Below the pieces are notes generated by a model. The model was not told the origin of the DNA and did no database searches. It worked only from the letters and a program-made list of their open reading frames with translations. A program made the position numbers and the translations under genes. Below are positions 42,239 to 54,595 of a stretch of DNA of 64,000 nucleotides, one piece after another. Numbering within the stretch: position 1 is the stretch's first letter; each line of letters opens with the position of its first letter. The stretch is taken from the NCBI RefSeq assembly GCF_024127895.1, contig NZ_JAMYBK010000008.1:62001-126000 (forward strand), read 5' to 3'. Origin of the DNA: Pseudomonas guariconensis (GTDB lineage: Bacteria > Pseudomonadota > Gammaproteobacteria > Pseudomonadales > Pseudomonadaceae).

Positions 42239-43567
42239 TCACAGCAACGGTAGTGAGTAGCTCACCATCACCCGGTTTTGGTCCTGGTTCCATTCGCTCG
42301 GCACGCCGCTGCGCAGCATGCCATTGCGCCAGCTGAACGCCAGCCCCTTGAGCGTTCCGTCTTGCACCACGTAATCCAGGGCGATGTCGCGTTCCCATTC
42401 CTGCTCGTCGCCACCCGATGCCATGCGGATGTGGCTGCCCTTCAGATAGGCCACCGAGGCAGTCAGCCCCGGCACCCCCAGCGCCGCGAAGTTGTAGGCA
42501 TACTGGCCGAAGGTGGTGCGCTCGCCGGCCCGGGTGAAACTGGTCACCAGGCGATCGGTGAACAGATAGATACTGGCACCCGCCGCCCCTTCGCCGGTAT
42601 TGCCCTGGTTGAGTTGCACGAAGTTGCCGCTGTTAGATACCCGCTGATGGCCCAGCAGCAACGCATGACCACCGAGTGCATAGGTGAACATCGCGCTCCA
42701 GGTGTCGTTGTCGATCTTGCCCGGCGTATCGGCCAAGCCGCTCACCTGATAACCTGCTGCACGTCCAGAGGCCGAATCGTTGCGCCCGTCGGCATCGGTC
42801 TTGAAGTAACGCAGGTCGGTGGTCAGCGACTGGTTGTCGGCCAGCGTCCAGACGTGTACCAGGCCGCCGAAGTGCTGCACGTAGTAGTCCTCGAGCTTGG
42901 CGGCGTAGTACTGCAGCTTGAGTGCTTCGCTCAATTGATAGTCGGCGCCGGCGAAGAGGAACGCGTTGCTCTCTTGGGTGCCCCCCGCGACAGCCAGGCC
43001 GGAGCGGTTGCTCGAGCCACGTCCGGTGGTGTGCTCCAGGCGCCCTCCGGTCAGCGTCAGGCCATCGAACTCCTGGGAGGTGATCATGCCGCCCTCGAAG
43101 GTCTGCGGTAGCACGCGACCGTCGTTGGTCACCAGGATCGGCAATTTCGGTTGCAAGGTGCCGTAGCGCGCCTCGGTCCTGGAGAAGCGCAGTTTGCCGG
43201 TCAGCCCCAGTCGACTCCACTGGTCGACGGCGCTGCCGTCGCTGTCGTCGGGAATCATCGAGCTGCCACGGTGGTTGCCGCCGCCGCCGTCCAGGCGCAC
43301 CCCCAGCATGCCGAGGGCGTCGACGCCAACGCCGACGGTGCCGTCGGTGAAACCGGACTTGTAGTCGAGCAGAAAGCCCTGGGCCCATTCGGCGGTCTTG
43401 CTCTGCCCTGCGGCACTGGGGCGGTCGCGAAAGTCATTGTTGAAGTAGTAGTTGCGCAAGGTCAGGGCGGCTTTGCCATCTTCGACGAAGGCTGCCTGGG
43501 CGGGGGGAGCGAGCAGGGCGCTGGTGGCGGTCAGCAGGGAAAGGTGCATGAAGGGCTTTCTTGTCAT
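42239..43567 (-). CDS. OprD-family outer-membrane porin
   Basis: 442 residues with a Sec signal peptide (cleavage likely after PPAQA) and the OprD-family mature start (FVEDGKAALTLRNYYFNNDF, then EWAQGFLLDYKSGFTDGTVGVGVDALGMLG). Alternating beta-strand character and a C-terminal aromatic-poor VSYSLPLL end fit an 18-stranded substrate-specific channel. It follows the PPC/ligase/thiolase unit in the same direction past a terminator. Likely the outer-membrane entry route for the TRAP substrate. The two N-terminal Met codons leave a small doubt about the exact start. Confidence 0.93.
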   Translation of the reverse strand: MTRKPFMHLSLLTATSALLAPPAQAAFVEDGKAALTLRNYYFNNDFRDRPSAAGQSKTAEWAQGFLLDYKSGFTDGTVGVGVDALGMLGVRLDGGGGNHRGSSMIPDDSDGSAVDQWSRLGLTGKLRFSRTEARYGTLQPKLPILVTNDGRVLPQTFEGGMITSQEFDGLTLTGGRLEHTTGRGSSNRSGLAVAGGTQESNAFLFAGADYQLSEALKLQYYAAKLEDYYVQHFGGLVHVWTLADNQSLTTDLRYFKTDADGRNDSASGRAAGYQVSGLADTPGKIDNDTWSAMFTYALGGHALLLGHQRVSNSGNFVQLNQGNTGEGAAGASIYLFTDRLVTSFTRAGERTTFGQYAYNFAALGVPGLTASVAYLKGSHIRMASGGDEQEWERDIALDYVVQDGTLKGLAFSWRNGMLRSGVPSEWNQDQNRVMVSYSLPLL

Positions 43568-43656: not shown

Positions 43657-44055
43657 TCAGTCAGGCAGCCATTCCTGAAGGGTCAGTTCGACGGTGATGA
43701 ACGATAGGTTGCGGCCTCTTTGCAGCCGGCCGGCGAAGATATTGCCATCGGCATCGGCAACCACCGCCTGCAGGCGGCTTTCACCGGCTGCGATCTCGCC
43801 GCTGAGGCTGAGGATTTCCACCCCCGGCCCAGGCACATGGATAGCCTGCATGCCGTTGTGGCCCAGGTAGTGCAACTGGGCGTCGATCAGGCTGCCCAGG
43901 CCGCCGCGGACCACGGCCAGGCGGATGCCGTGGCTTGCGCACAGGGCTTCGGCACTGTCGATGATGTCTTCGTTGGGCTTGAGTCGGGCCACCACCAGGC
44001 GGCCCAGGCGGCCGCTCTGTACCTGGGACTCGGTTTGGCTCGCTGCAAGGTTCAT
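43657..44055 (-). CDS. PPC/DUF296-domain protein without the histidine triad
   Basis: 132 residues forming a single PPC (DUF296) domain: residues 17-130 run from RLGRLVVARLKPNEDIIDSAEALC to VELTLQEW. At the site where the family usually has HxH and a following GGH, this protein reads RLQAVVADADGNIFAGRL, so the putative metal ligands are gone. No AT-hook, so not the plant-type DNA-binding form. Its ATG overlaps the stop of the second PPC gene (ATGA) with a strong AGGAGG in front. I infer a regulatory or structural partner of the His-bearing paralogue. Function unknown. Confidence 0.85.
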   Translation of the reverse strand: MNLAASQTESQVQSGRLGRLVVARLKPNEDIIDSAEALCASHGIRLAVVRGGLGSLIDAQLHYLGHNGMQAIHVPGPGVEILSLSGEIAAGESRLQAVVADADGNIFAGRLQRGRNLSFITVELTLQEWLPD

Positions 44056-44603
44056 GAGGCCTCCTGGAACACCGGGTGGAGCAGGTTGAAGTGGGTTTCC
44101 GCGTCGGGCTGTACCTGGTAGGCGACCTGCTCGAACAGGCACAGGCGCAGCACCAGGGGGTCGCTGCCGACCACCAGCCGGTCGAGCACCAAATGGCCGC
44201 CGTGTTGCTGGCCGTGGCGGTCGATGAAGCCGGCGTGGCAGTGCAGCAAGGGGGCGCCGCGGGCATCTCGACCCACGGTCAGTGCACCGCTGATGAAGGT
44301 GATGCAGCCGTCCAGCTCCACCGGGCGGCCATAATCGTACGGGCGTTGTGTGTCGCGGGTAGTGACCATGCGGTGATAGCTCAACCGCGCCGCGGTACCA
44401 CACAGGATGCGCCCCACCGCGCTGCGGTAGCTGTGCCCGCTGAGGGCCTCGAGCAAGGCCGAGGCGACGTTGCAGGCCTGTGGCAGGACGATGCGCAGTT
44501 CCTCGCAATCGGCCACTTCGCAGTCCAGCAAGCGCGGCTGCTTGGGTTGGCCGCTGTGAATGAAATGGCGCACGCCGGCGTGCTGTTCGAAGTGCGGGGT
44601 CAT
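44052..44603 (-). CDS. PPC/DUF296-domain protein with intact histidine motif
   Basis: 183 residues: about 75 N-terminal residues of unclear fold, though perhaps a degenerate half-domain, then a PPC core (about 95-180). It keeps the family pattern LHCHAGFIDRHGQQHGGHLV, with three His placed as expected for a metal or substrate site. Its start overlaps the ligase stop (ATGA), and its own stop overlaps the start of the short PPC protein. With the thiolase and ligase it forms a fully coupled four-gene unit. Enzymatic role unknown; see findings. Confidence 0.85.
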   Translation of the reverse strand: MTPHFEQHAGVRHFIHSGQPKQPRLLDCEVADCEELRIVLPQACNVASALLEALSGHSYRSAVGRILCGTAARLSYHRMVTTRDTQRPYDYGRPVELDGCITFISGALTVGRDARGAPLLHCHAGFIDRHGQQHGGHLVLDRLVVGSDPLVLRLCLFEQVAYQVQPDAETHFNLLHPVFQEAS

Positions 44604-46180
44604 AGGGCAGGCTCCTCGCAGGCATCGAGCAGGGCGCGGATCTGCTTCTTGACGATCTTGCCGTAGCCCGATTTGGGCATGGTTTTCCAGCGCACGAAGC
44701 GCTTGGGCCATTTGTAGCGGGCCAGGCGCGGCTCCAGGTGAGCCAGCAACTGTTCGTCACTGACCTGCTCGGTGGTGACGATCACCGCGCAACCGCACTC
44801 GCCCCATTTTTCGTCCGGCAGGCCGAGCACCGCCACTTCGTTGACCGCCGGATGGGTCAGCAGTGCTTCCTCGATCTCGCGTGGGTAGACGTTCGAGCCG
44901 CCGGAGATGTACATGTCCGAGGCGCGCCCGGTGATGAACAGGTAACCCTGCTCGTCGACATGGCCCAGGTCGCCGGTGTGGAACCAACCATGGCGAAAGC
45001 AGGCGGCGTTGGCCTGCGGGTTGTCGTAGTAGCCGGCGAACACCGCCGGGCCGCGCACGCAGATCTCGCCATCGCTGCCAGTGGGCAGTTCGTTGCCCTG
45101 CTCGTCGAGGATCGCCACCTGCATACCGGTGCGCGGGTAACCGCAGGAGCCGACCTTGGCCCATGGGCTGTCCTCGGCATCGTGGCAGTCGGCGGGCAGC
45201 ACGGTGATATTGCCCGTCACCTCGCCCAGCCCGTAGTACTGCACCAGCACCTTGCCCAAGGTGCGCAGGGCGTGGCACTGGTCGGCGCGGTACATGGGCG
45301 CGCCAGCGTAGATGACATAGCGCAGGCTGCTGTGATCATGGCGAGCGACCGCTTCATCCTCGGTGAGCATCTTGACGATGGTCGGCACGGTGAACAGGTT
45401 GTCGACCTTGTGTCGTTCCACCAGCCGCCAGGCCTCGTCGCAGTCCAGCCGGTCGCTGGAAGGCAGGATGCAGGCAGCGCCGCGGGCGACGTTGACCAGC
45501 GCGTGGATACCGGCGCCATGCGACAGCGGTGCCAGCACCAGCGAGCGGGATCGCTGGGTGAGGCCCGGCATGAGGTCGGCGAGGTGGTTGTTGACCACGA
45601 ATGCCATCTGCCCGTGGGTCAGCACGCCAGCCTTGGGGTGGCCCGTGGTGCCTGAGGTGTAGAAGAACCACAGTGGGTCGTGATAGAGCACCTCGGCCGG
45701 GCGGAAGCTGGGCTGCAGCGCTGCGCCCTGGTCGAGCAGTTGGTCGTAGCCCAGCTCACCCGTGCGCGGCGTGCCGATGGCGATCACCAGGCGCAACGCC
45801 GCCGAGGCTTCGCGAACGGCGTCCACGTAGTGGGCGAAGCCTTCGTCGTAGAGCATCGCCACCGCGCCGCTGGAACTGCCCAGGTAGGCCGCCTCGGGCG
45901 GTGTGATGCGCACATTGGTCGGTACCCAGACCATGCCCAGGCGGAAGGCGACCCAGGCGCTCTCGAACAATTGCAGGTTGTTGCGCGAATGCACCAGCAG
46001 GCGGTCGCCCTTGCCCAGCCCCTTGGCGCGCAGCGCAGCGGCCACGCTGTCGACACGGTTGAGCAATTGGCGCCAGCTGTAGCGTTGGTGGCCGCGAATG
46101 AACCCCGGTTCGTCGGGTAGCCGGCGGGCAGTTTGCGCCAGCAGTTCACCGAGGTTCATGACGTTGTCGATACCGGTCAT
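44600..46180 (-). CDS. AMP-forming acyl-CoA synthetase/ligase
   Basis: 526 residues of the adenylate-forming (ANL) superfamily. P-loop YTSGTTGHPKAGV near residue 178, YYGLGEVTGN, the hinge-region ITGRASDMYISGGSNVYP, and the C-terminal catalytic Lys in PKSGYGKIVKK are present. It would activate a carboxylic acid, aromatic or medium-chain, as a CoA thioester. The start and the thiolase stop share TGATG. Substrate not predictable; by context it is the compound brought in by the TRAP carrier. Confidence 0.93.
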   Translation of the reverse strand: MTGIDNVMNLGELLAQTARRLPDEPGFIRGHQRYSWRQLLNRVDSVAAALRAKGLGKGDRLLVHSRNNLQLFESAWVAFRLGMVWVPTNVRITPPEAAYLGSSSGAVAMLYDEGFAHYVDAVREASAALRLVIAIGTPRTGELGYDQLLDQGAALQPSFRPAEVLYHDPLWFFYTSGTTGHPKAGVLTHGQMAFVVNNHLADLMPGLTQRSRSLVLAPLSHGAGIHALVNVARGAACILPSSDRLDCDEAWRLVERHKVDNLFTVPTIVKMLTEDEAVARHDHSSLRYVIYAGAPMYRADQCHALRTLGKVLVQYYGLGEVTGNITVLPADCHDAEDSPWAKVGSCGYPRTGMQVAILDEQGNELPTGSDGEICVRGPAVFAGYYDNPQANAACFRHGWFHTGDLGHVDEQGYLFITGRASDMYISGGSNVYPREIEEALLTHPAVNEVAVLGLPDEKWGECGCAVIVTTEQVSDEQLLAHLEPRLARYKWPKRFVRWKTMPKSGYGKIVKKQIRALLDACEEPAL

Positions 46181-47346
46181 CACACAGCCTCCAGAATGCT
46201 CACGTAGTTGGTGACAGCAGCGCCGCCCATGTTGAACACACCAGCACGGTCGGCACGGGACAGTTGCATATCGCCGGCTTGGCCGCTGAGCTGCATGGCG
46301 GCCATCACGTGCATCGACACGCCGGTGGCCCCGATCGGGTGGCCCTTGGACTTGAGCCCGCCCGACGGGTTGATCGGCAGGCGGCCGTCCTTGTGGCTGA
46401 TACCTTCCTTGATCACCCGCGCACCCTGGCCAGGCTCGGCCAGGCCCATGGCCTCGTACTCGAGCAGCTCGGCGATGGTGAAGCAATCGTGGGTCTCCAC
46501 CAGCGACAGGTCGGCCAGGGTCATCCCGGCCTGGGCCAGGGCTTGCCGCCAGGCGCGTGCGGCGCCCTCGAACACGGTAGGGTCGCGGCGCGACAGCGGC
46601 AGGTAGTCGTTGACTTGCACCGCGGCCCGGAAGCGCACGGTGTTGCGCTGGCTATCGCCCAGGTCGGCACGGCTGACCACCAGCGCCGCAGCGCCGTCGG
46701 TGATCAGCGAGCAGTCGCTGCGCTTGAGTGGGCCGGCGACGAAGGGGTTTTTCTCCGAGGGTGTGCGGCAAAAGTCGAAGCCCAAGTCGCGGCGCATGTG
46801 GGCGAAGGCATTGAGTGCGCCATTGGCGTGGTTTTTCGCCGCGATCATGGCCAGGGCGTCGGACTGGTCGCCATGGCGGGCGAAATAGGCGCTGGCGATG
46901 TTGCCGAACACGCCGGCGAAGCCGTTTTCGATCTGCGCTTCTTCGCGCGCATAGCAGCACTTGAGGAGGATGCGACCGACCTCCGCAGTCGGCAGGCCGT
47001 TCATCTTCTCGAAGCCCACCACCAGGGCATGCCGGGAGTGGCCGCTGAGCACCGCCTGCAGCGCCGAATGGATCGCCGCCGAACCTGTGGAACAGGCGTT
47101 CTCCAGGCGTACCGACGGGGTGAAACGCAGCGCTGGCAGGTGATTGGCCAGCAGTGCGGAGGGGAAGTCCTGGTAGAGCAGGCCGGCGTTGAAGTGGCCG
47201 ACGTGGACCGAGTCGATCTGCTCGGCCTCGAGCCCCGCATGGCTGAGCGCGCCGATGGCGGCGTCGGCCATCATCTGCTCGGGGTCGATCTCGGGGAACT
47301 TGCCGAAGGGGGAGTGGTACCAGCCGCGGATGACGGGCGAATCCAT
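46180..47346 (-). CDS. SCP-x-like thiolase (acetyl-CoA acetyltransferase family)
   Basis: 388 residues. The acylation Cys lies in ENACSTGSAAIH near residue 90, HDCFTIAE supplies the His of the SCP-x branch, and the C-terminal GGLKSKGHPIGATG the second His loop (a Cys-x-Gly of ordinary thiolases is replaced by NMGGAAV). This branch includes lipid-transfer-protein thiolases and retro-aldolases, which commonly work with a DUF35 partner; no DUF35 gene is here, but two PPC genes are. Start at MDSPVIRGW, 28 bases after the predicted sigma-54 transcription start. First gene of the leftward unit. Confidence 0.92.
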   Translation of the reverse strand: MDSPVIRGWYHSPFGKFPEIDPEQMMADAAIGALSHAGLEAEQIDSVHVGHFNAGLLYQDFPSALLANHLPALRFTPSVRLENACSTGSAAIHSALQAVLSGHSRHALVVGFEKMNGLPTAEVGRILLKCCYAREEAQIENGFAGVFGNIASAYFARHGDQSDALAMIAAKNHANGALNAFAHMRRDLGFDFCRTPSEKNPFVAGPLKRSDCSLITDGAAALVVSRADLGDSQRNTVRFRAAVQVNDYLPLSRRDPTVFEGAARAWRQALAQAGMTLADLSLVETHDCFTIAELLEYEAMGLAEPGQGARVIKEGISHKDGRLPINPSGGLKSKGHPIGATGVSMHVMAAMQLSGQAGDMQLSRADRAGVFNMGGAAVTNYVSILEAV

Positions 47347-47743: not shown

Positions 47744-48775
47744 ATGAGCGATTTCACCCGCCGTTCCTTCATCAAGACGGCCTCCATGGCATCGGCCGCC
47801 GTCGCTGCCGCCGGTCTGGGCCTGTACAGCGGCAGCAGCCGCGCCGCGGACTTCAAGTTGAAGTTCGCCAACAACCTGCCGATCAGCCACCCGATGAACA
47901 TCCGCGCCCGGGAGATGGCCAAGGCCATCAAGGAAGAAACCAACGGCGCCCTCAGCGTGCAGGTGTTTCCCAGCAGCCAGTTGGGCAGCGACACCGACAC
48001 CCTGGCCCAGGTGCGTTCCGGCGCGGTCGACCTGTTCTCGCTGTCGCCAGTGATTCTTGGCACGTTGGTGCCTTCGGTACAGATCAGCGCGGTGGGTTTT
48101 GCCTTCAAGGACTATTCACAGGTGTGGAGCGCCATGGACGGCGCGCTGGGCGCCCATGTGCGCAATGAAATCGCCAAGACCGGCACGCTGTTCGCCTACG
48201 AACGCATGTGGGACAACGGCTTCCGGGTCACCACTACCAGTACCCGGCCGGTGGCCACCCCCGACGACCTGCGTGCGATGAAGCTGCGCGTGCCGCCCAG
48301 CCCGATCATCATGTCGATTTTCCGTGCCCTGGACGCCGCGCCGACCAGCATCAACTTCGCTGAAGTCTACTCGGCCTTGCAGACGCGCATCGTCGAGGGG
48401 CAGGAAAACCCGTTGACCCTGGTGGCTTCGGCCAAGCTCTACGAAGTGCAGAAGTACTGTTCGTTGACCAACCATGTCTGGGACGGTTTCTGGATGCTTG
48501 GCAACAGCGCCTCCATCGGCCGCCTGCCGGCCGAGCTCCAGGCGGTGCTGCGCAAGCACATCGACGCGGCGGTGCTGGCCCAGCGCGAAGACCTCGCCAA
48601 GCTCGAAGGCAGCACCCGCGATACCCTCAAGGCACAAGGCCTGGAGCTGGTCGAAGCACCAGCCGAACCGTTCCGCGAGAAGTTGCGCAACGGTAACTAC
48701 TACGCGCACTGGCACGAAAAGTTCGGCGATGAAGCCTGGGCCATTCTCGAGCAGTTCTCCGGGAAGCTGGCATGA
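47744..48775 (+). CDS. TRAP transporter solute-binding protein (DctP type)
   Basis: 343 residues. The N-terminus has a twin-arginine signal (TRRSFIKTASMASAAVAAAGLGL), so it is likely exported folded by Tat. The DctP core shows LKFANNLPISHPMNIRAREMA, FPSSQLGSD and the substrate-clamping Arg region MKLRVPPSPI. It captures an organic anion in the periplasm. The stop overlaps the permease start (ATGATG). Strong AGGAGAG lies before the ATG; a sigma-54 promoter lies 70 bases upstream. Confidence 0.95.
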   Translation: MSDFTRRSFIKTASMASAAVAAAGLGLYSGSSRAADFKLKFANNLPISHPMNIRAREMAKAIKEETNGALSVQVFPSSQLGSDTDTLAQVRSGAVDLFSLSPVILGTLVPSVQISAVGFAFKDYSQVWSAMDGALGAHVRNEIAKTGTLFAYERMWDNGFRVTTTSTRPVATPDDLRAMKLRVPPSPIIMSIFRALDAAPTSINFAEVYSALQTRIVEGQENPLTLVASAKLYEVQKYCSLTNHVWDGFWMLGNSASIGRLPAELQAVLRKHIDAAVLAQREDLAKLEGSTRDTLKAQGLELVEAPAEPFREKLRNGNYYAHWHEKFGDEAWAILEQFSGKLA

Positions 48776-50655
48776 TGAGCGCCCCAGCGGTCACGGCCTC
48801 CAACCTTCCACAGCGCCTGCCGGCCCGGGTGCTGATCCGCTTGAACACCTGGACCATGCGCGTGGTCGGGGTGATCGCCGTCGCCTTGATGGTGATAGAG
48901 ACCTTGGTGCTGCTGGCGGGTGTTATCGCGCGCTATGTGCTGCACAGCCCGTTGATCTGGTCCGATGAGCTGGCGTCGTCGCTGTTCATCTGGTTGTCGA
49001 TGTTCGGCGCGGTGCTGGCGCTGGACCGCGGCGAGCACATGCGTATGTCGGCGGTGGTCAACAAGCTGCCCGCTGCCTGGCGCGGCTTCAGTGAAACTTT
49101 GTCGGCGCTGATCGTCTGTCTGTTCGTGGCGCTGATCATCTCGCCCGCCATGCAGCATTCCCATGAACAGATGTGGATCACCACGCCGGCCTTGGGCATT
49201 CCCGATGGCGTGCGCGCGGCGGCGCTGCCGGTGGGCGCGGTGCTCATGCTGCTGGCGGCGGTGGCGCGCATGGCGCGTTACTCGACCGTGCGCCAGTTCA
49301 TGGCCGGGTTGGGCGTGGTGGCGGTGGTGGCAGGCGTGCTGTGGTTGGCACAGCCGCTGCTGGAGCAGATGGGCAACTACAACCTGGTGGTGTTCTTCCT
49401 GGTGCTGCTGGGCGCTTGCGTGTTCGGCGGCATCCCCATCGCCTTCGCCTTTGGCACCGCGACCATGGCCTACTTGGCCTTGGCGACCCATGCGCCATTG
49501 TCGATCGTGGTCGGACGCATGGATGAAGGCATGTCGCACATGGTGCTGTTGGCGGTACCGCTGTTCGTGCTGCTGGGCGTGGTGCTGCAGCTCTCCGGCA
49601 TGGCGCGTACCCTGATCGACTTCATGGCCTCGCTGCTCGGGCATGTGCGCGGTGGCCTGCAGTATGTGTTGCTGGGTGCGATGTTCCTGGTCTCCGGTAT
49701 TTCTGGTTCCAAGGTGGCCGACATGGCGGCTGTGGCGCCAGCGTTGTTCCCGGAGATGAAACGCCGCGGGTCCAAGCCCGAGGAACTGGCGGCGCTACTG
49801 TCGGCTACCGGGGCGATGACCGAGACCATTCCGCCGAGCCTGGTGCTGATCACCATTGGTGCGGTCTGCAGTGTGTCGATCACCGCGCTGTTCATCGGTG
49901 GGTTGATGCCGGCGGTGGTCGCCACCGTGGCCATCGCGGTGGTGTGTTGGTGGCGCTCGCGCAAGGAGCAGGGGCCCAGGATCGAACGCGCGCCGCTGTC
50001 GCGTGTGGGCAAGACTTTCCTGATCGCCTTGCCGGCGCTGGCCCTGCCATTGCTGATTCGCGTCGCTGTGCTGGAGGGCGCGGCCACCGCCACCGAGGTA
50101 TCGACCATCGGCGTGGCCTACGTGGTACTGGTCGGCCTGGCGATGCACCTGTTCATGCGCCATATCGAGTGGCGCAGGCTGTACCCGATGCTGCTCGAGG
50201 CTGCGGCGTTGTCCGGGGCCATCCTGCTGATCATCGGCATGGCCTCGGCCATGGCCTGGGCGCTGACCCAGTCGGGCTTCTCCAATTCGCTGGTCGAGCT
50301 GATCGAGGAGATCCCTGGCGGCACCTTGGGCTTCATGTTCGTCACCATCATTGTGTTCCTGGTGCTGGGCAGTGTGCTCGAAGGCATCCCGGCCATCGTG
50401 CTGTTCGGCCCGTTGATGTTCCCGCTGGCCGAAATGCTCGGCATCCACCCGGTGCACTACGCCATGGTGGTGATCCTGGCCATGGGTGTGGGGCTGTTCG
50501 CACCACCGCTGGGGGTGGGCTTCTATGCCGCTTGCGCCATCAGCAAGACATCGTCCGATCATGTCATTCGCAGGGTCTGGGGCTATCTGGGGGCCTTGCT
50601 GGTGGCCCTGGTGATCGTCGCCTGTTTCCCGTGGATTTCCATTGGTTTCCTCTAA
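48772..50655 (+). CDS. Fused TRAP permease (DctQ-DctM)
   Basis: 627 residues. About 20-180 is the four-helix DctQ domain (RYVLHSPLIWSDELASSLFIWLSMFGA), and about 195-625 the DctM domain (GIPIAFAFGTATMAYLAL, SGISGSKVADMAAVAPALFPEM, TETIPPSLVLITIG, GVGLFAPPLGVGFYAACA). The two subunits are one polypeptide here. Sodium-driven uptake across the inner membrane with the DctP protein encoded immediately upstream. The SDR gene follows 12 bases on. Confidence 0.95.
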   Translation: MMSAPAVTASNLPQRLPARVLIRLNTWTMRVVGVIAVALMVIETLVLLAGVIARYVLHSPLIWSDELASSLFIWLSMFGAVLALDRGEHMRMSAVVNKLPAAWRGFSETLSALIVCLFVALIISPAMQHSHEQMWITTPALGIPDGVRAAALPVGAVLMLLAAVARMARYSTVRQFMAGLGVVAVVAGVLWLAQPLLEQMGNYNLVVFFLVLLGACVFGGIPIAFAFGTATMAYLALATHAPLSIVVGRMDEGMSHMVLLAVPLFVLLGVVLQLSGMARTLIDFMASLLGHVRGGLQYVLLGAMFLVSGISGSKVADMAAVAPALFPEMKRRGSKPEELAALLSATGAMTETIPPSLVLITIGAVCSVSITALFIGGLMPAVVATVAIAVVCWWRSRKEQGPRIERAPLSRVGKTFLIALPALALPLLIRVAVLEGAATATEVSTIGVAYVVLVGLAMHLFMRHIEWRRLYPMLLEAAALSGAILLIIGMASAMAWALTQSGFSNSLVELIEEIPGGTLGFMFVTIIVFLVLGSVLEGIPAIVLFGPLMFPLAEMLGIHPVHYAMVVILAMGVGLFAPPLGVGFYAACAISKTSSDHVIRRVWGYLGALLVALVIVACFPWISIGFL

Positions 50656-50667
50656 GAGAGTCCTATC

Positions 50668-51459
50668 ATGAGCCAAGCTGCGACAACCACAATCAACTGG
50701 CCGGCCGAGGGCCGGGTAGCCCTGGTGACCGGGGCGGCGATGGGCATCGGCGCGGCCATCGCCGAGCGCCTGGGGCACGATGGCCACACCGTGGTAGTGG
50801 CCGATATCAACCTGGCGGCAGCCGAAGAAACGGCGGCGGGGCTGCAGGCCCAGGGCATCGATGCCCTGGCCATGGTCATCGACATCGGTGACCCGCAATC
50901 CATCGCTGTGTTGTTCGACACCCTGCGTACGCGCTGCGGGCGTTGCGATGTACTGGTCAACAATGCCGGTGTCGCCCGCACCCAGGCGTTTCTGGAGACC
51001 GACCTGGAGGGCTGGCAGCGGGTGATGAACATCAACCTGACCGGCACCTTGTTGTGCAGCCAGCAGGCGGCCCTGCTGATGCGCGAGCAAGGCTGGGGGA
51101 GGGTGATCAATGTCGCCTCGATCAGTGGCATGCGCGCGAGCATGGGGCGTACCGCCTACGGCACGTCCAAGGCGGCGGTGATCGGCCTGACCCGGCAGAT
51201 GGCCATCGAATTGGCCGAGCATGGCATCACCGTCAATGGCATTGCTCCAGGGCCGGTGGATACGCCGCTGACCCGAACCCTGCATTCGGCGGCCACGCGC
51301 GAGTCTTACGCCCGGGCGGTGCCGCTGCGCCGTTACGGAACGCCGGCGGAGATGGCGGGGGCGGTGGCCTTCCTGGCGTCGGAAGATGCCTCGTATATCA
51401 GCGGGCACGTGATCCCGGTGGATGGCGGGTTCATGGCTTCGGGGATCCTGGAGATCTGA
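50668..51459 (+). CDS. Short-chain dehydrogenase/reductase
   Basis: 263 residues, classical SDR: cofactor motif TGAAMGIGAA near residue 22, NNAGVA, catalytic Ser in NVASISGM and YGTSK (Tyr/Lys), and the C-terminal GHVIPVDGGF. Acidic residue after the second strand (VVVADINL) favours NAD. It is the last gene of the sigma-54-driven TRAP unit, so it probably oxidises or reduces the imported compound or a CoA intermediate. Confidence 0.93.
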   Translation: MSQAATTTINWPAEGRVALVTGAAMGIGAAIAERLGHDGHTVVVADINLAAAEETAAGLQAQGIDALAMVIDIGDPQSIAVLFDTLRTRCGRCDVLVNNAGVARTQAFLETDLEGWQRVMNINLTGTLLCSQQAALLMREQGWGRVINVASISGMRASMGRTAYGTSKAAVIGLTRQMAIELAEHGITVNGIAPGPVDTPLTRTLHSAATRESYARAVPLRRYGTPAEMAGAVAFLASEDASYISGHVIPVDGGFMASGILEI

Positions 51460-51599: not shown

Positions 51600-52523
51600 T
51601 CAATGTTCGAGCGCCCGCCGTGCGTCGTCCTCCTGTGTCGCCTGCTCCCCAGCCTGCCGCGCCGTTTCCACGAATGTGGCAATGCACGGGTTGTGGTTAT
51701 CCGCCTTCCACACCGCCACCACTTCGATCACCGGCGCATCACGCAGTGGCCGGAAGGTCGTGCTGGCCAGGCGCATGTTGCGCATCGAGCGCGGCACTAT
51801 CGCCACCCCCAGGCCTTCGCCCACCAGGTTGACGATGGTCTGCTGCATGTTGATCTCCATGCCGATGTTCGGCGTCACGCCGTGCTGCAGGCAGTAACCG
51901 CAGATCATGTCGTGCAGGGCCGGGGCGATGCGCCGAGGAACGATGATGAAGCTCTCGCCCGCCAGGTCACGGGGCTCGACCATCGCCCGCTGGGCCAGGC
52001 GATGGGCCGGTGGCAAGACCAGGGTCATTTCCTCGCGGTACAGGGTCATGGTCTCCAGCCCCGAACAGTCCTGGGGGCGGTACATGATCGCGACGTCCTT
52101 GTTGCCACTGCTGATGTCCTGGGCCAGGTCCAGCGGCAGGGTTTCGGTCAGTTTCAGGTCGACCTGCGGATACAGCGCCGCGTAGCGCCGGGTGATGGCC
52201 GGGGTGATGCTGTAGGCGGTGGACATCATGAAACCGACCGACAGAGCCCCGGCCGCACCGCGGGCTGCGGCGAGGGCGTTGCGTTTGGCCTGCTCGAAGG
52301 CGGCGAACACCGTGCCGGTGTCCAGGTAGAAGCGCTGCCCGGCTTCGGTCAGTTCCACGCGCCGGCGCGAACGATCGAACAGCTTGACCCCAAGCTCCTC
52401 TTCCAGCAGGGCGATCTGCCGCGACAGCGGTGGCTGGGAAATGTGCAGGCGTTCTGCGGCACGGCCGAAGTGCAGGGTCTCGGCCAGGGTACGGAAGTAC
52501 TGCAGGTGGCGGAGTTCGATCAT
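51600..52523 (-). CDS. LysR-family regulator (CatR/BenM-like N-terminus)
   Basis: 307 residues. MIELRHLQYFRTLAETLHFGRAAERLHISQPPLSRQI is the pattern of the CatR/BenM/CbnR branch that controls aromatic-acid and related pathways; the effector domain follows from about residue 90. Start chosen at MIELRH; the longer frame reads through the AT-rich spacer. It is divergent from the sigma-54 activator gene, 158 bases apart, and may regulate it, adding a second control layer to the catabolic block. Confidence 0.92.
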   Translation of the reverse strand: MIELRHLQYFRTLAETLHFGRAAERLHISQPPLSRQIALLEEELGVKLFDRSRRRVELTEAGQRFYLDTGTVFAAFEQAKRNALAAARGAAGALSVGFMMSTAYSITPAITRRYAALYPQVDLKLTETLPLDLAQDISSGNKDVAIMYRPQDCSGLETMTLYREEMTLVLPPAHRLAQRAMVEPRDLAGESFIIVPRRIAPALHDMICGYCLQHGVTPNIGMEINMQQTIVNLVGEGLGVAIVPRSMRNMRLASTTFRPLRDAPVIEVVAVWKADNHNPCIATFVETARQAGEQATQEDDARRALEH

Positions 52524-52554
52524 GATGCTCGCAAAGGTATCAATGGATGCTTGA

Positions 52555-52637: not shown

Positions 52638-52681
52638 CGTCGACATAGTCACGAGCTATAGAACAACAAAAGGTGACGCTG

Positions 52682-53728
52682 ATGCCCTCGCTGACCGAAC
52701 CTGCTGTGCTTGCTCCCACCCCCGTAGTGCCCGAAACCGATATTGCCCATGACAGCGACCCTCAGGTACGCCAGGCCTTTCGCCGTGCGCTGCGCCTGAT
52801 GGAGCGCGGCATCGCCGTGTTGATCCGCGGCGAAACTGGCACCGGCAAGGAAATTCTTGCCCGCGCCCTGCATGCCCACAGCCAGCGCCGTGCCGCGCAA
52901 CTGGTGGCGCTCAACTGTGCGTCGATCCCGCAAACCCTGATCGAGAGCGAGCTGTTCGGCTATACCCGCGGCGCTTTCTCCGGGGCGCTGCCTGGCGGCA
53001 AGAAGGGCAAGGTGCAACAGGCCGACGGCGGTACGCTGTTTCTCGATGAGATCGGTGACATGCCCTACGAGCAGCAGACCCGCCTGCTGCGGGTGATCGC
53101 CGAGCGCGAGGTCACCCCGTTGGGCGGCGAGCGCAGCCTGCCGGTGAACTTCGCGCTGGTCTGTGCGACTCACCAGGACCTTGCGGCCCGGGTCGCCGAT
53201 GGCAGCTTCCGCGAGGACCTGTTCTATCGTATCGCCACCGGCGTCGTGCACTTGCCGCCGTTGCGCGAGCGCAGCGACCGTGGCGAGTTGTTGTGCAACA
53301 TGGTCGCCCACGAGTTGCCCGGCCGCGATCCACGCCAGGTGATCAGCGCTGAAGCATGGTCGTTGCTGTTGAGCCATGCCTGGCCCGGCAACCTGCGGCA
53401 GATGCGCGCCGTGGTGCGCTACGCCTGCGCGGTGATGGAAGGCACGCGAATCCAGCGTGGCGACCTGCCGGTAGATTTCCTGGCGCAACTGGGCGGCACT
53501 GCCATCGTGCCCCGGCCAGCGCTGCCGAACGTCACGCCAATCCGCCCGCAGCGCTCGGGCGACGAGCGTGCCAGCGTGCTCGAGGTGCTGCAGGCCTGTC
53601 GTTGGAACATGTCTGCCGCGGCCCGTGAGCTGGGTATCTGCCGGCCGTCGTTATATCGGGTATTGCGACGCCTGGATATCCCGCCGCTCAAGGAGCAATT
53701 GGCACTCGGTGCCTGCCGCAGCGCCTGA
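52682..53728 (+). CDS. Sigma-54-dependent activator without sensor domain (AcoR-like AAA+)
   Basis: 348 residues. Only about 25 residues precede the AAA+ domain, so no receiver, GAF or PAS domain is present. Walker A GETGTGKE (50-57), the sigma-54 contact loop GAFSGA (97-102, Ser for the usual Thr), Walker B GGTLFLDEIGDM, and FREDLFYRI with the Arg finger are intact. The C-terminus has a Fis-type helix-turn-helix (MSAAARELGICRPSLYRVLRRL). ATG at 52682 follows AAGGTG; a GTG three codons earlier is possible. It most likely drives the two divergent sigma-54 promoters of this block. Confidence 0.93.
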   Translation: MPSLTEPAVLAPTPVVPETDIAHDSDPQVRQAFRRALRLMERGIAVLIRGETGTGKEILARALHAHSQRRAAQLVALNCASIPQTLIESELFGYTRGAFSGALPGGKKGKVQQADGGTLFLDEIGDMPYEQQTRLLRVIAEREVTPLGGERSLPVNFALVCATHQDLAARVADGSFREDLFYRIATGVVHLPPLRERSDRGELLCNMVAHELPGRDPRQVISAEAWSLLLSHAWPGNLRQMRAVVRYACAVMEGTRIQRGDLPVDFLAQLGGTAIVPRPALPNVTPIRPQRSGDERASVLEVLQACRWNMSAAARELGICRPSLYRVLRRLDIPPLKEQLALGACRSA

Positions 53729-53812: not shown

Positions 53813-54595
53813 ATGAATGCCCCTGTTGTCTATGCACCTCTGAACTTCACCTTGGCCAACCGCACCGCGCTGGTCACTGGTGCTGCGCGCGGCATCGGCT
53901 ACGCCATCGCCGTGGCGCTTGGCCACTGCGGTGCGCGGGTGGCCCTGGCCGACCTCGACCCGGAAGCCGTCGAGCGTGCCGCCGGCCTATTGCGTGAACA
54001 AGGTATCCAGGCGCTTGGATTGGGTGTGGATGTGGCCGACGAGGAGCAGGTGCGGGCCATGGTCGATCAGGTCGAGCGGCGCTTGGGCGGGGTCGATATC
54101 CTGGTCAACAACGCCGGCATCGTTTCCACTGCACCGCTGCTGGAGTTGACGACCGAGGAGTGGAACCGGGTCATGGCGATTGATCTCAATAGCGTGTTCT
54201 TCTGCGTCAAGGCGGTGCTGCCGGGGATGATGGCACGACGCGGCGGGCGCATCATCAACATTGCCTCGGTTGCCGGCAAGCGTGGCGGCGGGTTGTTGGG
54301 CAACAGCTGCTACGCGGCGGCCAAGGGCGCGGTGATTGCGCTGACCAAGGGCCTGGCGCGTGAGGCCGGGCCCTTCGATGTGACCGTCAATGCGGTTTCG
54401 CCAGCATTGACGGACACCGAGATGACCAGCGTGCTGGCGCCCCAGGCCCGGGCCCAGGTGCTGGCCCAGATGCCGCTGGGGCGCGCCGGCACGCCGCGAG
54501 ACATTGCGGCGGCGGTGTGTTTCCTGTCATCGGCGGAGGCGGGATTCGTCACCGGCGAGATCATGGATGTGGATGGCGGCTTCATGCGCGATTGA
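53813..54595 (+). CDS. Short-chain dehydrogenase/reductase (FabG-like)
   Basis: 260 residues, classical SDR: TGAARGIGYAIAVALG near residue 22, NNAGIVST, NIASVAGK, catalytic YAAAKGAV, and GEIMDVDGGF. The Asp-Leu pair after strand two (VALADLDPEA) indicates NAD. Clear GGGAAAA upstream. It follows the sigma-54 activator by 84 bases and is probably a further enzyme of the block, for instance a hydroxyacyl or diol oxidation. No sigma-54 promoter is seen in front of it. Confidence 0.92.
   Translation: MNAPVVYAPLNFTLANRTALVTGAARGIGYAIAVALGHCGARVALADLDPEAVERAAGLLREQGIQALGLGVDVADEEQVRAMVDQVERRLGGVDILVNNAGIVSTAPLLELTTEEWNRVMAIDLNSVFFCVKAVLPGMMARRGGRIINIASVAGKRGGGLLGNSCYAAAKGAVIALTKGLAREAGPFDVTVNAVSPALTDTEMTSVLAPQARAQVLAQMPLGRAGTPRDIAAAVCFLSSAEAGFVTGEIMDVDGGFMRD

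Follow-up and report, generated by a model that had tools for sequence, protein, structure and literature searches.

A recurrent pair of PPC/DUF296 proteins linked to an AMP-forming CoA ligase: candidate subunits of one heteromeric enzyme

Two overlapping genes for PPC/DUF296 proteins, one with and one without a characteristic histidine motif, are coupled to a thiolase and a CoA ligase in Pseudomonas guariconensis, which raises the question of what such a pair does and with which enzyme it works. The window analysed here is a stretch of 64,000 nucleotides, and the genome searched along with it comprises 5.34 Mb in 87 contigs. Four genes on the reverse strand form the locus: an SCP-x-type thiolase (46180..47346; 388 amino acids; motifs ENACSTGSA, HDCF and GHPIGATG), which belongs to this type by its NCBIfam match (NF005704, 629.3 bits, cut-off 412); an AMP-forming acyl-CoA ligase (44600..46180; 526 amino acids; PF00501, 252 bits; NCBIfam NF005676, 845 bits, cut-off 774); PPC1 (P0001; 44052..44603; 183 amino acids), which carries the HCH...GGH histidines and a C-terminal DxET motif; and PPC2 (P0002; 43657..44055; 132 amino acids), which is without the histidines. 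Consecutive genes overlap by TGATG or ATGA, exactly as first described: thiolase and ligase have TGATG in common at 46180, ligase and PPC1 share ATGA at 44600–44603, and PPC1 and PPC2 share ATGA at 44052–44055.

PPC2 is adjoined by an OprD-family porin (42239..43567, reverse strand; PF03573, 459 bits). On the other side, divergent from the thiolase operon and on the forward strand, lie a TRAP solute-binding protein (DctP, 47744..48775; PF03480; 418 bits to 4oan), a fused TRAP permease (DctQM, 48772..50655; PF06808 and PF04290) and an SDR oxidoreductase (50668..51459; PF13561). A LysR-type regulator of uncertain start (51600..52535, reverse strand; PF00126 and PF03466), a sigma-54 enhancer-binding regulator (52673..53728, forward strand; PF00158) and a second SDR oxidoreductase (53813..54595, forward strand; NCBIfam SDR models) follow. 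SDRs related to the first recur at other loci with this gene module, and relatives of the second are found at some of them.

The sequences bear out the predicted pairing of one PPC protein with and one without the histidine motif. PPC1 reads LHCHAGF...HGGHLV where PPC2 has SRLQAVV...FAGRLQ, and the coordinates of both agree. PPC2 matches the PPC family PF03479 with 66.9 bits, above the gathering cut-off of 25, and PPC1 with 21.9 bits, just under it; that PPC1 is named a diverged PPC protein follows from the fold of a relative, the motif and the tree (see below) and not from the Pfam cut-off. The two are the sole PF03479 matches in the whole genome (E up to 0.001), and PCC is the only Pfam match of either at E values up to 0.1. 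PPC proteins are labelled “DUF296”, “hypothetical” or “DNA-binding” in the plasmid records examined, some of which say “DNA-binding protein” or “PPC domain-containing DNA-binding protein”. Together with the plant AHL proteins, which bind DNA and carry an AT-hook (RGRP core) beside the PPC domain, these annotations would make the pair DNA-binding regulators. This reading is highly improbable: neither PPC1 nor PPC2 contains the RGRP core or a Pfam domain besides PPC, relatives are fused to an enzyme, and the clusters have separate regulators of the LysR, IclR, Lrp or sigma-54 type.

The pair is not a chance arrangement, for it recurs in alpha-, beta- and gammaproteobacteria. We scanned genome contigs with a thiolase alignment and took the best 80 of 569 relatives as loci. 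PPC1 was present at 44 of these 80 and at 34 of the 49 among them whose flanks each reach 8 kb or more. Within the 44 PPC1-containing loci, PPC2 was detected in 42, a ligase scoring above 500 bits in 42 and a binding protein in 37. At L084 and L087 the PPC2 half is visible in the alignment alone; the two loci short of this ligase score are L037, which is cut by a contig end, and L062, where the ligase reaches 123 bits and where PPC1 has GGR in place of GGH. A search of plasmids with the PPC1 protein matched 23 records. Six regions were examined. In those from Variovorax, Agrobacterium, Roseomonas and Bartonella, the PPC2 gene comes after PPC1, and ligase, thiolase and TRAP genes lie close by; those from Alloyangia and Phyllobacterium have a fused protein (see below). 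Identity to the window's thiolase is 61–66% for five module thiolases encoded on plasmids. In Roseomonas (L005, 10660–12201), a gene annotated as acetolactate synthase large subunit lies about 2 kb beyond the module, possibly by coincidence.

The nearest named relatives at the locus are the Pseudomonas loci L013–L015, with thiolases 83–85% identical to that of the window. In a genus sample, PPC1 was found in only 4 of 199 genomes, the window's own included, and the other three (L118–L120) have ligase, thiolase, TRAP and SDR genes alongside. The OprD porin is also present at L013–L015, L119 and L120 and absent at L118. The patchy distribution of PPC1 within the genus suggests horizontal spread.

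The pair takes three forms: two genes, one fused protein, or a fusion behind the ligase, the last in Neorhizobium and relatives. Altogether, 15 fused PPC1-PPC2 proteins were found (13 plus those of L084 and L087). An Alloyangia plasmid encodes a single fused PPC protein of about 276 amino acids with the same neighbours as the unfused pairs. On a Phyllobacterium plasmid, one fused PPC protein is encoded close to a ligase; the gene table of that stretch, which is incomplete, lists neither a thiolase nor a TRAP gene. Ligase, PPC1 and PPC2 form one open frame at L065, L069, L071, L076 and L081 (Neorhizobium and other Rhizobiales; 843–936 amino acids from stop to stop) and again in genome G458 (L109; 865 amino acids). 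Five loci of Agrobacterium and Rhodoferax (L004, L041, L072, L074 and L089) have the PPC pair as separate genes and, at most a few kb away, a fused PPC1-PPC2 gene as well. Fused PPC genes at L143, L148 and L151 are without an adjacent ligase and lie near SDR genes and genes that by eye resemble acyl-CoA dehydrogenases, again a CoA setting.

Which of the neighbours is the partner of the pair was assessed in a phylum sample of 398 genomes, with strong PPC1 matches defined by E below 1e-20, the ligase by E up to 1e-130 and the thiolase by E up to 1e-110 (per genome, eight candidates were scored for PPC1, five for the binding protein, three for the ligase and four for the thiolase). Strong PPC1 was found in 25 genomes at 26 places, the 26th (L102) being a second PPC copy of genome G363 without ligase. 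The ligase was found in exactly these 25 genomes, the other 373 having none at this threshold (Fisher p 3e-40, kinship ignored). The 25 genomes span 14 genera, nine of them coming from one genus. Leaving the window's own genome aside, the ligase shares the strand of PPC1 in all 24; the gap between the two is at most 100 nt in 22 of these and 344 and 2499 nt in the remaining two. The TRAP binding protein follows PPC1 more loosely (17 of the 25 genomes vs 6 of the 373 others). At the ligase-PPC loci of the nine f48/g109 genomes no further pathway gene was seen among the neighbours listed, which are chromosomal genes, e.g. uvrA-like by eye. As a negative control, five loci of weakly scoring ordinary PPC proteins (L121–L125) showed no ligase, thiolase or binding-protein match nearby.

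The linkage of ligase and PPC is common and not universal: at 14 of the 80 thiolase loci, including six full-flank ones, a ligase above 600 bits comes with no PPC in the stretch covered. PPC1 is encoded elsewhere in 10 of these 14 genomes (L038, L045, L048, L050, L059, L063, L067, L080, L083 and L085); in the other four, an isolate (L066) and three metagenome bins (L044, L058 and L068), it was not found genome-wide. In total, 14 of the 26 genomes searched genome-wide have PPC1, including those of two known PPC-containing loci (L037 and L062). Among the PPC genes examined that lie far from a thiolase locus, most are fused genes that no ligase adjoins. Co-occurrence, adjacency and natural fusion, all read from genome sequences, identify the CoA ligase as the pair's closest partner in the genomes. 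The genomes also show the pair tied, more loosely, to the thiolase, the SDRs and the TRAP importer.

The thiolase stood at the centre of the original prediction, in which the PPC pair was a new kind of partner for an SCP-x thiolase lacking its usual DUF35 protein. That no DUF35 partner is present was confirmed for the genome searched: zf-ChsH2 (PF12172) had no match there, with 150 of 242 candidates scored, and OB_ChsH2_C (PF01796) had none among all 19 candidates scored. A scan for CxxC zinc-ribbon motifs gave no convincing DUF35 near the thiolase at loci with or without PPC. The conserved co-occurrence with thiolases on which that prediction had staked itself was also found, with PPC1 at 34 of the 49 full-flank loci and the thiolase in 24 of the 25 genomes with strong PPC1. 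Set against this, the thiolase occurs in 44 of the 398 genomes, of which 24 have strong PPC1 and 20 do not, and just 9 of the 25 PPC1 genomes have it linked to PPC. On these counts the thiolase was rejected as an obligate partner and is not supported as the specific one. The tie to CoA metabolism thus stands and the specificity for the thiolase does not, the ligase tracking PPC1 more closely (25 of 25 genomes, 0 of 373). No frame joining thiolase and PPC was seen among the multi-domain frames listed.

The further step of placing the pair in the position of DUF35 is not supported by L060, a thiolase genome where searches found no PPC1 and no DUF35 either, nor by the distribution of zf-ChsH2, which occurs somewhere in 16 of 28 genomes, with and without PPC alike; PF01796 was found in none of 11 genomes picked from those without zf-ChsH2. 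Taken together, that the pair is an accessory partner replacing DUF35 is very unlikely, despite the shared operon. Thiolase loci unlinked to PPC or without strong PPC1 have varied neighbours (eight regions). At two of them without strong PPC1, L158 and L159, the same thiolase subfamily lies near a gene that by eye resembles an amidohydrolase (dihydroorotase/hydantoinase).

What the two PPC proteins contribute was read from an alignment of five canonical single PPC proteins, 25 PPC1 rows and 25 PPC2 rows. The canonical proteins (L121–L125) were chosen from 13 places where the phylum sample gave a weak PPC match (E from 4e-12 to 7e-7), and the PPC1 and PPC2 rows each comprise 12 of the 15 fused proteins (L004, L006 and L074 left out), 12 of 35 unfused proteins and the window's own. 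All five canonical proteins have an Arg, an Asp (GxD), a Glu (LEI), HxH, GGH and a DxxT tail. PPC1 rows keep the three histidines (25, 25 and 24 of 25) and the DxxT tail (25 of 25) and have mostly lost Arg (2 of 25), Asp (1 of 25) and Glu (3 of 25). PPC2 rows are the complement, with 0, 1 and 0 of 25 for the histidines, no DxxT tail, and Arg in 21, Asp in 24 and Glu in 25 of the 25; in the window's PPC2 these are Arg, the Asp of PNED and the Glu of VEIL.

In the tree, PPC1 forms one group (support 100/98) and PPC2 another (100/99), and the fused rows group together within each (99/98 and 97/95); the inner branching of PPC1 and PPC2 is similar by eye. Long branches meet where the three groups join, which makes their order unsure. 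An hhalign comparison of PPC1 with PPC2 was not significant (probability 0.5%). Alignment and tree show PPC1 and PPC2 to be related to ordinary PPC proteins, co-inherited and, at the level of sequence, to divide the canonical residues between them. Such complementary loss is the pattern expected if two chains now build one active site.

Since the pair is conserved, co-inherited, naturally fused and tied to CoA metabolism, a single heteromer is likely, as had been proposed. The accompanying division into a catalytic and a regulatory subunit is too simple, because PPC2 retains canonical residues that PPC1 lost. Alternatively, the entire pair might be non-catalytic and serve the CoA ligase as a subunit that regulates it or senses its substrate, given that ligase adjacency, co-occurrence and fusion show partnership and not catalysis. 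We regard this as unlikely, for all three histidines persist in 24 of the 25 PPC1 rows although the relatives are 23–29% identical to the window's PPC1, as expected of a metal site, the Glu is present in every PPC2 row, and fused PPC genes lie away from the ligase in several genomes.

A composite active site raises the question of its fold, for which we used the predicted model of a fused Agrobacterium relative (301 amino acids; pLDDT 93.4, pTM 0.91). Its PPC1 half matches PPC structures (2h6l AF0104, 2dt4 PH0802, 3htn, 3hwu, 2p6y, 2hx0 and 2nmu) with Z scores of 10.9–13.2 and hence has the PPC fold. Three of these, 2dt4, 2h6l and 2hx0, have HxH and GGH in the alignments, as PPC1 does, and 2h6l is titled as metal-containing. 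The same half resembles alpha-acetolactate decarboxylase (ALDC; 4bt2, 4bt3, 5yho, 6j92; PF03306): nine ALDC or ALDC-like entries align over 111–124 residues with Z 6.8–9.7, five of them above 8, including 4bt2 (Z 9.7, rmsd 3.5 Å, 114 residues) and 4bt3 with bound 2,3-dihydroxy-2-methylbutanoate (Z 9.5), and the next unrelated row below the ALDC entries has Z 3.9. A first pass with Foldseek placed ALDC 25th (E 0.17). By eye, the ALDC motif GyHxHFI...GGH(L/V)L resembles HCHAGF...GGHLV of PPC1, with a spacing three residues off that of 4bt2; in ALDC the HxH...GGH histidines ligate zinc. Homology by sequence is not supported, with an hhalign probability of 0.7% for PPC1 against ALDC and no match of PF03306 to PPC1 or PPC2 at E up to 0.1.

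A hint at the substrate comes from the TRAP binding protein. The closest solved structure to the window's DctP is 4oan, RPB_2686 of Rhodopseudomonas palustris HaA2 (model vs 4oan Z 42.0, 57% identity), which we take to carry density modelled as 2-acetolactate. A review (PMC5812351) lists 2-acetolactate among the ligands that Vetting et al (2015) identified for TRAP proteins; RPB_2686 is not named in the passages concerned. Because 4oan-like binding proteins also occur in 6 of the 373 genomes without strong PPC1, their ligands may differ, and we do not claim a substrate. At L134, a stretch free of PPC genes, a 4oan-like binding protein lies near a gene the start of which looks, by eye, like that of a four-carbon acid kinase; this group of binding proteins may thus serve several small acids. 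Fold and binding protein point weakly to a short 2-hydroxy-3-oxo acid, e.g. 2-acetolactate.

The same two observations, the ALDC-like fold of the relative's PPC1 half and the 4oan-like importer with its presumed ligand, would fit an enzyme of the acetolactate decarboxylase kind whose substrate is a free 2-hydroxy-3-oxo acid, converted ahead of the ligase step on a route to or from an acetoin-like compound. ALDC itself acts on a free acid; we know of no ALDC with an attached ligase, and fusion to a CoA ligase suggests that the acid is kept and activated. The possible diversity of the importer's ligands speaks against this reading too, and we judge it quite unlikely.

We favour, at a probability of roughly 0.55, the reading that PPC1 and PPC2 together make up one heteromeric enzyme, probably dependent on zinc, whose active site would be composite and which would act on the substrate or product of the ligase in a catabolic CoA pathway. 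Under this proposal, the ligase would activate an imported acid. The PPC1 histidines would bind zinc, as in acetolactate decarboxylase, given the similar fold and the similar HxH...GGH arrangement, and PPC2 would complete the active site across the subunit interface by supplying acid/base and anchoring residues. The pair may use as its substrate either the acid destined for activation by the ligase or the acyl-CoA that the ligase makes, in each case ahead of the thiolase; an SDR could make a 3-oxo group, and the thiolase could cleave the resulting 3-oxoacyl-CoA. The likeliest chemistry is a guess that we hold with low confidence, namely that zinc assists a rearrangement or a C-C bond cleavage, the substrate being a short branched acid of the 2-hydroxy-3-oxo or 2,3-dihydroxy type, free or as CoA ester. 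Somewhat likelier, if still tentative, is the idea that the pair is a heteromeric metalloenzyme with its catalytic residues distributed between two PPC genes, and that it forms a channelled two-step unit with the CoA ligase, which Neorhizobium and relatives make as a single polypeptide.

Prokaryotic PPC/DUF296 proteins are widespread, and to our knowledge they have no assigned enzymatic function. If the proposal is right, the superfamily gains such a function in CoA metabolism together with a biochemical link to the acetolactate decarboxylase fold, and the pair would be a clean case of an active site split over two duplicated genes. A composite zinc site, if found, would also suggest a role for the histidines in ordinary single PPC proteins. 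In practical terms, the ligase-fused, co-inherited pair offers a concrete partner, an assay and point mutants. In the literature searched, mostly outside subscription journals, DUF296 never appeared together with a thiolase, a TRAP transporter or acetolactate decarboxylase, nor did titles and abstract openings mention a ligase-PPC unit.

The single parts of the locus are ordinary; what is unusual is how the PPC residues are split and that a CoA ligase can be fused to the pair. Catabolic operons for hydroxy or aryl acids (phd-like) combine a ligase, an SDR and an SCP-x-type thiolase in one cluster, as the present locus does, and are not known to us to include a PPC pair. The DUF35/ChsH2-type partners of SCP-x thiolases (ChsH2, BbsA and archaeal DUF35) are, like the PPC pair, small proteins beside an SCP-x-type thiolase, but they differ from it in fold, and the PPC pair tracks the ligase more than the thiolase. 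Known PPC/DUF296 structures, finally, are single-chain proteins, whereas here two paralogues with ties to a CoA ligase share out the canonical residues between them.
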